A stretch of DNA of 47,180 bases from contig JALEIR010000052.1 in the NCBI GenBank assembly GCA_022769665.1, positions 1 to 47,180 on the forward strand, in the 5' to 3' direction. Every line of letters starts with the position of its first letter. Position 1 is the first letter of the stretch. The notes beneath the pieces were generated by a model. It was not told the origin of the DNA. It saw only the letters and a list, made by a program, of their open reading frames with translations, and did not search any database. This document shows positions 2,441 to 16,465 of the stretch, piece by piece. A program made the position numbers and the translations under genes. This DNA is from Lachnospiraceae bacterium (GTDB taxonomy: Bacteria; Bacillota; Clostridia; Lachnospirales; Lachnospiraceae).

Positions 2441-4219
2441 CTATATCAATCCAAAATGCTTTAAGGCATCTAAGATTGCCTCTTCCTTTTCTGGAGGACA
2501 CATAGGCTGTCTTGAATCTTCTGTTTTAGGTAGATTGTAATTCTCGCCCAGCTCTAGACCGCACTTTCTCTTTATTTGTGCAATATACAGATTACTTACT
2601 TTTAATCCATACTTTTCAAGTACATATTCCGAAATCTCTTTATAGGTAGCTTTTCTGTATGTTCTAATGCCTAATGCTGGAACATCAATATCAAAAGAAA
2701 CTGTTTCTGTGTTTTTCCTACCTAAAAGGACAACCGTCTCCACATGCACCGTCATTCCAAACTGATCAACGCCCCGAATCCTCGTAACTTCATATCCTCC
2801 GTCGCAGAGAATTCTTAAATCTCTTGCCAGGGTTGCGGAATCGCAGCTGACATACACAATGCGCTTCGGTTGCATTTTGAGCATGGTATCGAGGCAAGCC
2901 TCGTCGCAGCCCTTACGGGGCGGGTCGACTACAATGACATCGGGGTGGCGCATATTGGAATTCATCTCTTCATAAAACTTCGGCAGTACCTCCTCCGCCT
3001 TACCCACAAAAAACTCAGCGTTTGTAATCCCGTTTCGTTCAGCATTTTCTCTTGCATCCTCAATGGCCTGCGGGATAATCTCAACACCGCATACCTTTTT
3101 TGCGCTGTCTGCAAGAAACAGGGAGATTGTGCCGATACCGCAGTACAAATCCCAGACGGTCTCCTGTCCCGTTAATCCGGCATATTCCAACGCAAGACTG
3201 TAGAGCTTCTCCGTCTGTACGGGATTGACCTGGTAAAAGGACAGAGGAGAAATGTGAAAGGTCAGTTCCTTTCCGGTAAAAGGATATCCGGGTTTTGTCA
3301 TGTCCCGGACATGAATGGTATCGGAGATGGTGTCGCGTCCCCAAAGGGTATAAACCTCCTTACCCATGATGACATTGGTTTTTTCCCGATTGATGCTGAC
3401 AGATATACAGGTCATTCCCGGAATTACAGTCAATTTTTTCAAAAGCCTTTCCTGCTTGGGTAAAAAGTCTGCCCGCGTCGGATTTAAATCCCCCAATTCT
3501 GCCGATTGCACGCTGCTCTTGCTCTGTTGCCGGACAGTAGAGGCAGGAGGCTCTCTGTTAATCACCAGGCATACCATAATTTCTCCGCTGGTAAAGCCCT
3601 TCCGGATCAATACATGCCGTACCAGACCTTTCCCGGTCTCTTCGTCATATGCACTGACCTTATTTTCACGCATATATTCCAGAATCCGTTCCAGAATCTC
3701 CTTATTTTCTGCTGCGCCAAGGGCACAGTCCGTGTTTGCAATAATGGAATGCGTCCGTCCGGCATAAAACCCGGTGACAATATTGCCGTCTTTATCGGTA
3801 CCGACAGGGTACTGCGCCTTGTTCCGATAGTGCCATGGCTCGTCCATTCCGACAATGGGCTCCATCCGCGCATCTACATACTCCGGTTCAAAGCCGCCGA
3901 TGCGAATCAGATTATTTCGAATCTTCTCCTGCTTGAACTGCAACTGTTTCTCATAGGAAAGTGCCTGAAGCTGGCAGCCGCCGCACTGTCTGTAGTATTT
4001 ACATTTCGGCTCTGCACGGTAAGGAGAGGGCGTCAAAAGCTTCTCCAGTCTGGCATAGGCATAGTTCTTTTTTGGTTTTACGATTCTTGCTTCAACAGTA
4101 TCGCCTACTACGGCATCCTTGACAAACAAAGTGAAGCCATCGGATTTACCAATGCCTTCCCCTTCGCTTCCCATATCTTCGATTGTCACTGTCACAATGT
4201 CGTTTTTCTTAAAATCCAT
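2441..4219 (-). CDS. rlmD: 23S rRNA (uracil-C5)-methyltransferase, RlmD/RumA family, with C-terminal extension
   Basis: The protein should methylate C5 of a uridine in 23S rRNA using SAM. Domains in order: TRAM RNA-binding domain (about 3-60); Fe-S cysteines C73, C79, C82 and C165; SAM-binding DLYCGIGTI (about 357-365); DPPRKGCDE (432-440); and the catalytic Cys458 in YVSCD. At 592 residues it is longer than usual (about 450). Two parts account for this: a Ser/Gln-rich insertion at about 222-252, and a 90-residue C-terminal module (about 503-592: KATYKEISEYV, CGLELGENY, MCPPEKEEAI) that I recall also as a free-standing small protein in Clostridia. The gene ends 17 bases from the terminator of mobile-looking genes. 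Family assignment is firm; the target base and the role of the extra module are not. Confidence 0.93.
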   Translation of the reverse strand: MDFKKNDIVTVTIEDMGSEGEGIGKSDGFTLFVKDAVVGDTVEARIVKPKKNYAYARLEKLLTPSPYRAEPKCKYYRQCGGCQLQALSYEKQLQFKQEKIRNNLIRIGGFEPEYVDARMEPIVGMDEPWHYRNKAQYPVGTDKDGNIVTGFYAGRTHSIIANTDCALGAAENKEILERILEYMRENKVSAYDEETGKGLVRHVLIRKGFTSGEIMVCLVINREPPASTVRQQSKSSVQSAELGDLNPTRADFLPKQERLLKKLTVIPGMTCISVSINREKTNVIMGKEVYTLWGRDTISDTIHVRDMTKPGYPFTGKELTFHISPLSFYQVNPVQTEKLYSLALEYAGLTGQETVWDLYCGIGTISLFLADSAKKVCGVEIIPQAIEDARENAERNGITNAEFFVGKAEEVLPKFYEEMNSNMRHPDVIVVDPPRKGCDEACLDTMLKMQPKRIVYVSCDSATLARDLRILCDGGYEVTRIRGVDQFGMTVHVETVVLLGRKNTETVSFDIDVPALGIRTYRKATYKEISEYVLEKYGLKVSNLYIAQIKRKCGLELGENYNLPKTEDSRQPMCPPEKEEAILDALKHFGLI

Positions 4220-12733: not shown

Positions 12734-14160
12734 TGAAAAAGACCCTCTATTTGAAGTTTATACTGGCTTATTTCATATTTGGTGTTTTCAGCTTCATCAT
12801 TGTTTCCGTCTTTGTTCCCAATATGACAAAGGAACATTTGATTCGAGAAAAGGCAGAAACCCTTTATTCCGAAGCTACCCTGATATCCAATACCTACGCT
12901 ACCGGACTGTATACCAGTGAAACGGATTTGGAAACAGTAAAAACACAGCTTGATTTTCTGGCTGTATATCTGGATTCCACCATCCGTATCATCAATCCAT
13001 CCGGCAGGCTTGTCCTGGATACCAATACTCCTCTCAACGTAAAAGATGTAGTAATGATTGAAAATTTTGACCCAACTGCCACTGCAGGCTCTTACTACAT
13101 GGTAAATGACTTTTTCGGCAGCTTTGATTCAGAAATGCTCAGCGTATTTGCTCCTATTACTTCCAGCTATATGGTAAAGGGATATGTGGTAATACACTGT
13201 GACATGAATGATATACAGGATTCCTGCAACAGCATGTTGAATATTTCCTATATTACTTTGGTAATCCTGTTGCTGCTCTCATTAATTATTCTCATTTTCT
13301 TTACGGAGATGGTATACATACCGTTACGAAAAATTACTTATGCAACCGAACAGTATGCCGCCGGAAACATGCATTATGAATTTCAGGTGGAAAGTGATGA
13401 TGAAATCGGTTATCTTGCTGTCTGTCTCAACTATATGGCAAGCCAGATTGCAAGTGCCGAGGATGACCAGAAAAAATTTGTTGCAAACGTATCTCATGAT
13501 TTCCGCTCTCCTCTAACCTCTATCCGCGGTTATCTGGAGGCAATGATTGACGGTACCATCCCTCCGGAAATGCACGAAAAGTATCTCGGAATTGTATTGA
13601 ATGAAACAGAACGCCTGACAAATCTGACTAACAGTCTCTTGACACTAAACAATTTAAATACCAAGGGAATGATGTTAAACCGCACGGATTTCAATATCAA
13701 CCGGGTAATCCGAAACACTGCTGCCTCCTTTGAAGGTACCTGCCGGAAAAAAACCATTGCCATTGAACTGGTACTTACCGGAGATGAAATGTATGTGAAT
13801 GCCGATAAAGACAGAATTCAGCAAGTGCTTTATAATCTGATTGACAATGCCATCAAGTTCAGTCATCATGACTCGGTCATCAAGGTAGAAACCTCTTTGA
13901 AAAAGAATAAGCTTTTTGTCTCGGTAAAAGATACGGGAATCGGTATTCCCAAAGAAGATTTGAAACTGATTTGGGACAGATTCTATAAATCGGATTTATC
14001 CAGAGGCAAAGATAAAAAGGGTACCGGACTGGGCCTTTCCATCGTGAAAGAAATTATCAATTGCCACAATGAACATATCAACGTGATCAGTACAGAGGGT
14101 GTGGGAAGTGAATTTATTTTTTCCCTTGCTTTGTCAGCAAAAAACGACGAGGAAGATTAG
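12733..14160 (+). CDS. Sensor histidine kinase, two membrane segments
   Basis: A 475-residue kinase partnering the preceding regulator. TM1 is about 8-28 and TM2 about 172-192, enclosing an extracytoplasmic sensor of about 140 residues with no domain I can name. A HAMP linker (193-245) leads to the HisKA domain with His255 in NVSHDFRSP and the ATPase domain with the N box (NLIDNAIKFS), G1 (DTGIGIP) and G2 (GTGLGLSI). The signal is unknown. The last codons form part of a terminator and overlap the convergent S-component gene by three bases. Confidence 0.92.
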   Translation: MKKTLYLKFILAYFIFGVFSFIIVSVFVPNMTKEHLIREKAETLYSEATLISNTYATGLYTSETDLETVKTQLDFLAVYLDSTIRIINPSGRLVLDTNTPLNVKDVVMIENFDPTATAGSYYMVNDFFGSFDSEMLSVFAPITSSYMVKGYVVIHCDMNDIQDSCNSMLNISYITLVILLLLSLIILIFFTEMVYIPLRKITYATEQYAAGNMHYEFQVESDDEIGYLAVCLNYMASQIASAEDDQKKFVANVSHDFRSPLTSIRGYLEAMIDGTIPPEMHEKYLGIVLNETERLTNLTNSLLTLNNLNTKGMMLNRTDFNINRVIRNTAASFEGTCRKKTIAIELVLTGDEMYVNADKDRIQQVLYNLIDNAIKFSHHDSVIKVETSLKKNKLFVSVKDTGIGIPKEDLKLIWDRFYKSDLSRGKDKKGTGLGLSIVKEIINCHNEHINVISTEGVGSEFIFSLALSAKNDEED

Positions 14161-14174
14161 CTCCCCGTCGTTTT
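14141..14174. terminator. Bidirectional terminator built from the overlapping 3' ends of two convergent genes
   Basis: AAAACGACGAGG (14141-14152) pairs with CCCCGTCGTTTT (14163-14174) with one mismatch. The plus side runs into TTTTCAATTTT, the minus side into TTTTTTG. Both arms lie in or next to coding sequence of the kinase (stop 14158-14160) and the S-component gene (stop 14159-14157). Confidence 0.7.
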
Positions 14175-14699
14175 CAATTTTCTCATAACTTTTCTGATAG
14201 GAACATACAAAACCAGCATTACCACAAAATTTCCGATGCAATGCAGAATGTCATGTGGGATACCGGCAACCCACCAGGTAAAACCGGCGTAAAGTCCGCC
14301 TCGGATTCCTTTATCCGTAATACCAATCACAAAATACGGTATTGCGCATAAAAAACCAAAGCATAATCCAAATGCGGCAGACAGTATACTCCAAAACCAG
14401 ACAGATTCCTGTTTTCTGTTCAGGTATGCTAGAAATGCCAGAAGCGGCCAAACATACAGATACATAATCCACCAAAGACCCATACCGTATATACAACCTT
14501 CTATCAGTACAAAAACAGGCACAACAAACAGAATTCTCCATCCGAAAAATAAAGTAAACATGATAGTCCAAAAAGATACCAACTCAATACCCGGCACAAA
14601 ACTGAGCATTTCTTTACAGACCACAATCACTGCTACCATGACACCTATAAGCGCAATATCCTGTATGGTAATCTTGTGTTTCTTTTCTGATTTCGCCAT
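14157..14699 (-). CDS. ECF-transporter-type substrate-binding (S) component, candidate corrinoid uptake
   Basis: A 180-residue integral membrane protein with about six helices and a basic N-terminus (MAKSEKKHKITIQDIALIG), the usual shape of an S component that works with a shared energizing module EcfA-A'-T. It is rich in Trp and aromatic residues (YGMGLWWIMYLYVW). No EcfA or EcfT gene is nearby, so it would use a shared module (group II). It lies 47 bases after a DUF4430 gene; the pair sits behind a cobalamin riboswitch and terminator, which makes cobalamin or a corrinoid precursor the best guess for its substrate. The S-component call rests on size and topology; the substrate is inferred from regulation. 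Confidence 0.75.
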   Translation of the reverse strand: MAKSEKKHKITIQDIALIGVMVAVIVVCKEMLSFVPGIELVSFWTIMFTLFFGWRILFVVPVFVLIEGCIYGMGLWWIMYLYVWPLLAFLAYLNRKQESVWFWSILSAAFGLCFGFLCAIPYFVIGITDKGIRGGLYAGFTWWVAGIPHDILHCIGNFVVMLVLYVPIRKVMRKLKTTGS

Positions 14700-14746
14700 A
14701 ATATTTCATTCCGCCTCTTCGGTAAATCTACAATATCAAATCTGAC

Positions 14747-15160
14747 CTATTGACCTGCAGTATATACAATGGAAAAGGCGTCTCCGTCTTCTACCGGTTG
14801 CGTATCAATACCGTACATGCAATATTCTCCGTTCACATAAAATGCCCAGTACGCACCGTCAACATTGTAATCGGCTGTCTCACCGTTTACGGTATCCACC
14901 ATCAGACCATATTCGCTTTCTGTACCGGAAAAAGTTAACCCTTCCGCCTCCTCCATGGCCTGGCGAAGATATTCCGCATCTGTCTTCAGTTCGTATTTTT
15001 CGGATTCGGAAGACTTGTTCACAACTTCGATGGTGATGGACTTACTTCCTTCCACAGGTTTCTCACGGAAAACGACAAATACTACCGCAAGAATGGCAAT
15101 TACAACAACTAAAGCTGCAATGCCCGCAATGAGTTTTTTGTTTGTTTTTTTGGTTTCCAT
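14747..15160 (-). CDS. Membrane-anchored DUF4430 (transcobalamin C-terminal-like) protein
   Basis: A 137-residue protein with a basic N-terminus, one membrane helix (about 10-31, no lipobox cysteine) and an extracytoplasmic DUF4430 domain with the typical YWAFYVNGEY stretch followed by a VEDGDAFSIVY ending. DUF4430 is described as related to the C-terminal domain of transcobalamin and intrinsic factor, which contacts B12 in animals. ATG 15160 is chosen over an in-frame start 36 bases upstream because GGAGGAAATGAA precedes it. With the riboswitch upstream and the S component downstream, the simplest model is a surface protein that hands a corrinoid to the S component. That model is inference. 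Confidence 0.82.
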   Translation of the reverse strand: METKKTNKKLIAGIAALVVVIAILAVVFVVFREKPVEGSKSITIEVVNKSSESEKYELKTDAEYLRQAMEEAEGLTFSGTESEYGLMVDTVNGETADYNVDGAYWAFYVNGEYCMYGIDTQPVEDGDAFSIVYTAGQ

Positions 15161-15254
15161 TTCATTTCCTCCATTTTCGCTGCCTTTTACAGACATGTAT
15201 TTTGGTGAAAAGAATTCCTGTTCGTTAGGAAACGTACACTGTCAAGTGCACCTA

Positions 15255-15286
15255 CAAAAAAACTCCTGCCACTTTCGGCAGGAGTT
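15255..15286 (-). terminator. Riboswitch-associated terminator
   Basis: AACTCCTGCC (15261-15270) and GGCAGGAGTT (15277-15286) form a perfect 10-pair stem, followed on the minus strand by a run of T (15255-15260 region). It lies about 95 bases after the cobalamin aptamer and about 95 bases before the DUF4430 start, the place expected for the expression platform. A matching antiterminator is not obvious by eye. Confidence 0.8.
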
Positions 15287-15381
15287 GACGACACAAAATA
15301 GAACGCATACTTTGCAATAAAATTGCAGCATACCCGCATTATTTCGTACTAACCAAGCCCTCGTGGTCACACAGTACTCAC

Positions 15382-15599
15382 TACAGGCAGGTCTTCTGAC
15401 TTGAGTATCTACACTCTGTTTCGCCTTCCCGGATTTTTCCAATTACATTCTTTCGGAAAATCTCCAGTGACATTACTGTTTCATTACAAAACAGGAAACA
15501 CAGCTCCTCTCTTACAGCGACGAGATCGTGCAGGTCTTTCACCTGCTTCCCTTTTCACCGGACCAAACAAAATCCTTTTCGTTCATCCGACACCTGTAA
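15382..15599 (-). ncRNA. Cobalamin riboswitch
   Basis: Read on the minus strand it carries the conserved series of the class: TTACAGGTG opening P1, GGGAAGCAGGTGAAAGACC, CTGTAAGAGAGGAGC, then CCGGGAAGGCGAAACAG, and the closing AAGTCAGAAGACCTGCC-TGTA. P1 is formed by 15593-15599 with about 15382-15388. Binding of adenosylcobalamin (or another cobalamin) should stop expression of the downstream DUF4430/S-component pair through the terminator at 15255-15286. Confidence 0.95.
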
Positions 15600-15622
15600 T
15601 GCTCTTATTCACTCAAGTCAGT

Positions 15623-15651
15623 ATTGTAGCACAGCATTTTACAAAAAGCAA
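15623..15651 (-). promoter_or_regulatory. Promoter of the riboswitch transcript
   Basis: On the minus strand TTGCTT (15651-15646), a 17-base spacer and TACAAT (15628-15623) make a sigma-A-type promoter. Transcription would begin near 15616, some 17 bases before the aptamer. The -35 lies just past the SDR gene stop, so the riboswitch unit is independent of it. Confidence 0.7.
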
Positions 15652-15664
15652 CGAAAATGCGTTT

Positions 15665-16465
15665 TTACCAGGTACGGGAATTCAGCTGCTTAAACTGTGC
15701 AACAGTTGAAACATGAGAATTCAAACCACCGTCCACATTGACAATTTGTCCGGTTACATATGCACTTTCATCGGAGCCAAGATATACACACATATGTCCG
15801 ATATCCTCGGGACAACCGTAACGATCCACCATAATATTGCTCAGGAAAATATCCTTTAATGCCTGGGGAACATGTGCTTCATTTTCAGGTGTTACAATCA
15901 GACCGGGACGCACACAGTTACAACGGATATTCTGTTTTCCGTATTGCAGTGCTGTAGACTGTGTCAGCATATCTACACCTGCTTTCGCACAGGCGTATGC
16001 TGTAGAACCCAAATCTCCTGCACAGGAAGCCATGGAACCAATGTTAATAATGGAACCGCCTCCGTTTTTCTGCATATAAGGCAATACACACTTTGTAGCG
16101 TAAAATGTACCGCGCAAATCACTCTGGAATACATGATCCCACATCTCCAAAGTCAGCTCATCCACACGTCCGTCCTTCAGACCTACATTTGCCGCATTGT
16201 TTACCAGAATATCGATTTTACCGTATTTCTCCGCAGTATCTGCAAAAAGCGCCTCAATACTTTCCGTAGCGGTAATATCCATAAAATGATAGGAAGCCTC
16301 TCCACCTTCATTTACGATTCTGTCAACAACTGCCTGTCCCTTCTCCTGTCTGCGTCCGCAAATCACCACTTTTGCACCTTCTGCAGCATACAATCTGGCA
16401 ATTCCGATACCAATTCCGCTGGTAGAGCCGGTAACAATAGCAACCTTGTCCTGCAATCTGCCCAT
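15665..16465 (-). CDS. Short-chain dehydrogenase/reductase
   Basis: A 266-residue NAD(P)H-dependent oxidoreductase of the classical SDR type. It has the cofactor loop TGSTSGIG (12-19), NNAAN (89-93), and the catalytic triad residues Ser144, Tyr157 and Lys161 (YACAK). An Arg pair after strand 2 (CGRRQEK, 37-42) suggests NADP(H). The closing region ends VNVDGGLNSHVSTVAQFKQL, longer than usual after the GG. The substrate cannot be told; sugar, keto-ester or steroid activity are all possible for this shape. It has a strong AAGGAGGAT binding site and its own promoter. Confidence 0.88.
   Translation of the reverse strand: MGRLQDKVAIVTGSTSGIGIGIARLYAAEGAKVVICGRRQEKGQAVVDRIVNEGGEASYHFMDITATESIEALFADTAEKYGKIDILVNNAANVGLKDGRVDELTLEMWDHVFQSDLRGTFYATKCVLPYMQKNGGGSIINIGSMASCAGDLGSTAYACAKAGVDMLTQSTALQYGKQNIRCNCVRPGLIVTPENEAHVPQALKDIFLSNIMVDRYGCPEDIGHMCVYLGSDESAYVTGQIVNVDGGLNSHVSTVAQFKQLNSRTW

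Follow-up and report, generated by a model that had tools for sequence, protein, structure and literature searches.

The closest described relatives of the system reported here are ECF-CbrT of Lactobacillus delbrueckii, an energy-coupling factor (ECF) transporter that moves both cobalamin and cobinamide when placed in liposomes, sustains growth of E. coli that depends on B12 and belongs to a cluster named nrdJ-cbrS-cbrT-pduO (PMC5997447), and the bacterial transcobalamin-like proteins, with CbiO/CbiQ neighbors, for which Burroughs et al. (2007) predicted a role in B12 scavenging (PMC1796856). BtuM and BtuFCD are likewise bacterial B12 importers. Here we describe a two-gene unit from a Lachnospiraceae bacterium (assembly GCA_022769665.1, contig JALEIR010000052.1, forward-strand positions 1–47,180; this whole stretch of 47,180 nucleotides is referred to hereafter as the window), which lies within positions 14157–15651 on the minus strand, is read from 15651 to 14157, and encodes a DUF4430 protein followed by a CbrT-like ECF S component. 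With good confidence we read the two genes as a corrinoid import unit of the cbrS–cbrT kind, repressed by cobalamin, and the two proteins together are very probably this cell's way of scavenging B12.

The elements of the unit, in reading order, are:

15646–15651, minus strand: weak −35-like element TTGCTT (by sequence reading; absent from the list of a consensus promoter scan)
15623–15631, minus strand: extended −10 element, TGC-TACAAT (by sequence reading)
15369–15612, minus strand: cobalamin riboswitch aptamer, RF00174 (90.8 bits, E 2.6e-21)
15386–15402, minus strand: B12 box AAGTCAGAAGACCTGCC, 0 mismatches to the 16-base consensus
15261–15286, minus strand: terminator-like hairpin of 11 pairs, then TTTTT, between the aptamer and the first gene
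14747–15160, minus strand: DUF4430 (transcobalamin beta-domain-like) protein, 137 aa (PF14478; start chosen from homologues and GGAGG)
14157–14699, minus strand: CbrT-like ECF S component, 180 aa (CbrT profile match; structure model with fold match)

The second gene ties the unit to ECF-CbrT. The S component has no Pfam or NCBIfam match of its own (NCBIfam gave no specific substrate), and the family profile that we built around it, A1, matches CbrT (chain 6fnp_A; 6FNP is ECF-CbrT) over nearly its full length at 51.2 bits (E 1.2e-12), with an hhalign probability of 96.7 to the CbrT of a second locus (L119, below). Its structure model matches S components in a second look at Foldseek's hits (the procedure used for both proteins of the unit); CbrT itself (6fnp) is missing from that list of fold matches. 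Residues P36, G72, G111, G115, D150, H153, N157, and P167 are invariant in 26 aligned members, five of them Lactobacillus-type, to which the window's protein is 22–23% identical. The docking motif for EcfT is small-xxx-small in helix 1 (AxxxA); G19 and A23 are invariant in the 39 rows of A1, and profile alignment puts them opposite the two A residues of CbrT's ALLTA. By homology, modeled fold, common residues and an available motor, we assign the protein to the CbrT family, in keeping with the first-pass annotation, which had called the gene S-component-like.

The first gene encodes a protein matching PF14478 at 38.7 bits (cut-off 23.8). It is probably 137 rather than 149 residues long, since the public identical cluster and most listed homologues have 136–141 residues and the ATG at 15160 is preceded by GGAGG. 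The model places an N-terminal helix at residues 8–31, read as a membrane anchor in keeping with the earlier description of the protein as membrane-anchored, and a beta-grasp domain at about 38–137, the fold of which, as modeled, is specifically that of the transcobalamin beta domain. Transcobalamin, intrinsic factor, and haptocorrin have two domains, are secreted, and enter cells by receptor endocytosis; the window's protein, at 16–20% sequence identity to their beta domain, differs from them in comprising one membrane helix and one domain, with no alpha/alpha toroid fused to it. It shares with the transcobalamin-like clade of PMC1796856 the beta-grasp fold with a hairpin insert, and departs from that clade as a solo anchored domain without toroid, encoded beside an S component rather than a dedicated motor. 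BtuG of Bacteroides is comparable in that B12 is caught by a protein at the surface, which delivers it to a transporter in the membrane, although BtuG is a beta-propeller with the outer-membrane partner BtuB, so that fold and cell envelope are unrelated (PMC6143338).

Upstream of both genes, the aptamer covers model positions 1–189 of 189, and exceeds the gathering threshold of 31.5 bits; no second RF00174 match occurs in the assembly of 2.69 Mb. The hairpin at 15286–15261 draws its weight from its position in the interval between aptamer and gene, because the scan gave 6 such sites against 3.4 expected. The leader (15255–15625) out-folds 100 of 100 shuffled sequences (z −6.2). A score above the RF00174 gathering threshold, followed by a terminator-like element, identifies a cobalamin riboswitch, with ligand control as a prediction. 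Of the full promoter, cobalamin aptamer and terminator annotated at first pass, the aptamer and a terminator-like hairpin stand, whereas “full promoter” was generous: the −10 TACAAT (15628–15623) has an extended TG, the −35 TTGCTT (15651–15646), at a spacing of 17 nt, is poor, and the promoter is absent from the sites listed by the consensus scan. That the unit holds only two genes is upheld, an SDR-like gene upstream ending at 15665 and the S gene stop overlapping, at 14160, the stop of a histidine-kinase-like gene that converges on it (both names by sequence reading).

The pair was originally proposed as a two-part uptake system. Corrinoid uptake is supported by sequence, fold model, riboswitch, context, and gene absence; “two-part” needs amending in that the pair would require an ECF motor, which the genome provides. 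The assembly (98.09% complete, 93 contigs) contains one PF14478 match and one EcfT (171 bits), directly preceded by an ABC ATPase gene (112.8 bits to ABC_tran) and followed by a truA-like gene (named by sequence reading). PF02310 (B12-binding) gives two matches above cut-off and two below. Of the two above it, one is a MetH-like protein that combines both B12-binding domains with homocysteine S-methyltransferase and pterin-binding domains; the other joins a B12-binding domain to a radical-SAM protein. No member of the BtuC-type permease family FecCD is matched in the assembly (13 of 14 controls positive), nor is CobS (10 of 14 controls positive). We therefore rejected BtuFCD as the importer, and likewise the CobS route for the late steps of corrinoid synthesis, CobS being the one synthesis gene searched. 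Because PF02310 proteins are present and CobS and FecCD unmatched, the cell appears to use corrinoids, cannot complete them through the CobS route, and is without the common ABC importer. The DUF4430/S pair appears as the one candidate B12 importer found in this genome, the genome-wide search not having extended to other types such as BtuM.

Pairing of the two genes extends well beyond the window. Across 299 genomes of its taxonomic family, A1 matches in 88, RF00174 in 243, and PF14478 in 152. We retained 82 loci with an A1 score of at least 79 bits (80 plus L015 and the window; 11 lower-scoring rows were excluded) and called DUF4430 partners with profile A2 at E up to 1e-3. In 79 of the 82, the S gene is immediately preceded by a same-strand DUF4430 frame (that of L070 at only 17 bits); pairing of DUF4430 and S component is the rule in this family, not an accident. 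A division by score, which is not a tree, separates 53 high-scoring loci (clade 1) from 29 low-scoring ones (clade 2). Clade-1 partners have a hydrophobic N-terminus in 52 of 52 cases, nine with a lipobox pattern too, and the lipobox pattern is found in 24 of 27 clade-2 partners, which suggests that the type of anchor varies between clades and surface location stays constant. The distances within the two protein families correlate (Mantel r 0.78 over 79 pairs, 0.41 in clade 1 and 0.91 in clade 2, with 0 of 2000 permutations reaching each value), in a test that ignores the species tree and is weak evidence. Among neighboring genes, of which 20 of 88 on the same strand were scanned, a corrinoid link emerged only for a CbiO/CbiK-type gene of L049. 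Named homologues include Lachnospiraceae and Acetatifactor, bacteria with a gut habitat.

A cobalamin riboswitch precedes 42 of the 82 pairs: RF00174 reaches gathering at 38, an aptamer model built from diverged clade-2 aptamers (R1) adds L074, L087, and L090 (122–144 bits), and the pair of L049 ends a cbiM-cbiN-cbiQ-cbiO/cbiK operon under RF00174. Marginal R1 matches at L061 and L111 (E 0.006 and 0.07) and a B12-box-like stretch at L105 (2 mismatches; the opposite strand gives 0 of 82) went uncounted. Negatives refer to the 7.5 kb regions scanned, beyond which only L049 was followed, and at the contig-end loci L070, L078, L100, and L118 to 209–436 bases upstream. No other riboswitch family reaches its gathering threshold upstream of a pair at any of the 82 loci, and we rejected control of the pairs by another riboswitch class on this ground. 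The first-pass annotation had held that its proposal would fail if such pairs mostly lay under other riboswitches or served other cargo; the survey found cobalamin riboswitches at 42 and no other riboswitch family, and the frequency count that it had called for favors the proposal to that extent, tempered by the 40 loci without a counted cobalamin riboswitch.

Separately, the clade-2 pairs L073, L080–L082, L085, L086, L088, L089, L091, and L094–L098 lie below a diverged cobalamin aptamer scoring 32–57 bits to RF00174, with a B12 box changed to about AAGTCGAAATATCC; its core is strongly conserved in its own form (alignment A4, R1), and the aptamer may represent a separate subclass. At L043, a Clostridiales-1 RNA (RF01699, 3988–4141) immediately precedes a DUF4430/S pair for which no cobalamin riboswitch was detected. 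The wider region of L049 (L168 1304–6170, genome G133) runs from the riboswitch through cbiM, cbiN, cbiQ and a cbiO/cbiK fusion to a DUF4430 gene and a CbrT-like gene, a single unit that by gene content joins cobalt chelatase to the import of cobalt and of corrinoid.

How close the unit stands to ECF-CbrT can be read from a scan for CbrT, which gave six loci. Here nrdJ, DUF4430, cbrT, and pduO follow in order in L119, L121, and L122 (nrdJ and pduO by Pfam), an intact DUF4430 frame of 65.6–74.2 bits is found in L119, L121, L122, and L124, and the L123 fragment has no DUF4430 match. From gene order and Pfam we take cbrS to be the DUF4430 gene; profile A2 against one CbrS gives a probability of only 10.6, so that this identity rests on Pfam. 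The two systems have in common an S component homologous over nearly its full length, a DUF4430 gene directly upstream in related clusters, and a common ECF motor. They differ in that nrdJ and pduO are present at three of the six CbrT loci and RF00174 reaches gathering at none, whereas the window's unit consists of a riboswitch and two genes only, its DUF4430 protein held by a membrane helix. The earlier suggestion that the system may be undescribed does not survive in that wording: CbrT is proven and cbrS named beside it (PMC5997447), cbrS is a DUF4430 gene, and scavenging had been predicted (PMC1796856). CblT, listed at first pass as a B12 importer, is more probably an alpha-ribazole transporter. 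We found neither a published test of a CbrT's DUF4430 partner nor a published statement of DUF4430/CbrT near-inseparability in the literature searched, which did not cover subscription journals. One of these loci, L119 (JAEDAG010000008.1, titled Faecalicatena absiana), is an L. delbrueckii-like nrdJ-cbrS-cbrT-pduO cluster with a CbrT 98% identical; in a contig labeled as another genus this would be either contamination or very recent transfer.

Outside the family, a broader profile (A6) matches in 117 of 398 genomes of the phylum. DUF4430 is adjacent in 11 of the 12 best A6 loci ranked after the window and within about 1.5 kb in none of the next 17 (L143–L159). In wider regions around those 17 and three more, 19 of 20 have same-strand DUF4430 frames farther upstream, the nearest at 2.4–4.3 kb, the sole miss being L185, a 6.2 kb contig; an ABC-ATPase signature lies on the same strand in 17 of 20 (both calls by our own profiles at E up to 1e-3, not Pfam). 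One of the 17 S proteins, that of L146, was tested against CbrT and also matches it, at 58.4 bits. On the strength of these two results we rejected the idea that DUF4430 is tied to one clade only. Cobalamin riboswitches were found by R1 in 8 of the 20 wider regions (E up to 0.01; R1 is variant-based and several operons exceed the region), and a scan of the 20 smaller loci gave RF00174 in 4.

Larger operons occur within the window's family as well. Six of them (L160–L164 and L166), picked for an S match near DUF4430 and thus not a sample, all combine DUF4430, an ABC ATPase (by Pfam in L160, L162, and L166, by signature only in L161, L163, and L164), and an S match; RF00174 precedes four of the six. 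Pfam names EcfT in L164 and L166, and the putative EcfT frames of L161 and L163 have no Pfam match. Toroid-like domains, above or near Pfam cut-offs, are present in L160, L161, and L163, and in L161 toroid-like domain and DUF4430 form one protein, the make-up of transcobalamin. L162 (7260–9965) encodes a single chain of 901 aa in which two ABC ATPase domains are joined to an S component at the C-terminus, and open frames of ~740–1060 aa around some A6 S matches suggest that this type of fusion recurs.

We propose that low cobalamin in the cell would let transcription past the terminator. The DUF4430 protein would sit with one helix in the membrane and its modeled transcobalamin-beta-like domain outside the cell, where that domain would capture corrinoid in the manner of the isolated beta domain of human transcobalamin; the corrinoid would pass to the CbrT-like S component, which would dock on the common ECF motor whose genes are seen elsewhere in the genome, and ATP would drive its release inside the cell, for the MetH-like enzyme. 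Our confidence falls along this path: that the cargo is a corrinoid is highly probable, that the DUF4430 protein itself binds it is likely, and that it hands the corrinoid to the S component we judge only slightly better than even.

Several observations weigh against this proposal. Since the constructs of PMC5997447 comprise CbrT and the ECF module only, a DUF4430 partner is unneeded for transport as such. L120 (L. delbrueckii subsp. delbrueckii DSM 20074) retains a fused nrdJ–DUF4430 remnant (3655–3993, 42.1 bits) beside an open cbrT frame, so that by its sequence CbrT persists there without a whole partner, and three of the 82 S components (L071, L099, and L100) have no DUF4430 partner. The domain is solo, without the alpha/alpha toroid that cooperates in animal B12 binding, and its nearest solved structure, 3u7z, is deposited as a putative metal-binding protein. 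A counted cobalamin riboswitch is absent at 40 of the 82 loci. G022, of the same genus, has one RF00174 and no S-component or DUF4430 match; the pair is not fixed in a genus sample of two genomes (G022 and the window's).

Alternatively, the partner might not bind corrinoid at all and instead serve as a scaffold or chaperone stabilizing or orienting the S component for the same cargo, much as CbiN is a small accessory protein in cobalt ECF transporters. Such a role is conceivable though unlikely: the activity of CbrT in E. coli and in liposomes when only the ECF module is present and the instability of substrate-free CbrT in detergent (PMC5997447) would suit it, as would the adjacency of partner and S gene in 79 of 82 loci, expected for a subunit, whereas a domain with specifically the transcobalamin beta fold, the company of toroid-like proteins in L160, L161, and L163, which indicates a ligand role, and the invariance of W105 in 79 of 79 partners (possibly structural) argue for ligand binding. 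The loci without a counted riboswitch leave some room for a cargo other than cobalamin, be it another tetrapyrrole such as haem or a precursor (cobinamide, or a corrinoid with an unusual lower ligand), since CbrT also takes cobinamide (PMC5997447) and an ECF system for haem has been reported (PMC7299338). We regard this as improbable: the assembly's single cobalamin riboswitch sits at this very pair, cobinamide could not be completed by the CobS route in a genome without a CobS match, and in ECF-CbrT B12 met no competition from hemin (PMC5997447). Taken at its deposited name, 3u7z would have the DUF4430 protein bind a metal ion (calcium or cobalt) and the S component import metal, with the pair inside the cbiMNQO cobalt operon of L168 as further support; we give this very little credence.

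Corrinoid capture by the DUF4430 protein remains our preferred reading. Because CbrT works with the ECF module alone, the partner may serve only under low supply, in passing on corrinoid from the cell wall, in taking corrinoid from other binders, in cobamide choice, or in stabilizing the S component. We also put forward, tentatively and against our own expectation, that the corrinoid is sandwiched between the anchored beta domain and the S component, the latter doing what the alpha domain does in transcobalamin. In this doubtful arrangement, the corrinoid would first be caught by the beta domain outside, D150, H153, and N157 would face the ligand, and the DUF4430 protein would be a corrinoid-dependent subunit of the importer in its loaded state.

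The pair is a concrete candidate, widespread in the family, and it raises the question of what is gained from a transcobalamin-type surface domain when the importer works without one in vitro. If DUF4430 captures corrinoid, it would be a counterpart of the BtuG strategy of Bacteroides (PMC6143338), built from the domain of the human carriers. If the corrinoid is indeed held between the two proteins, ECF motor, CbrT-like S component, and transcobalamin-like surface protein would make up one class of importer across the phylum, spanning the minimal pair of the window to full operons with toroid proteins, and one capture domain would be common to animal B12 carriers and bacterial B12 importers.

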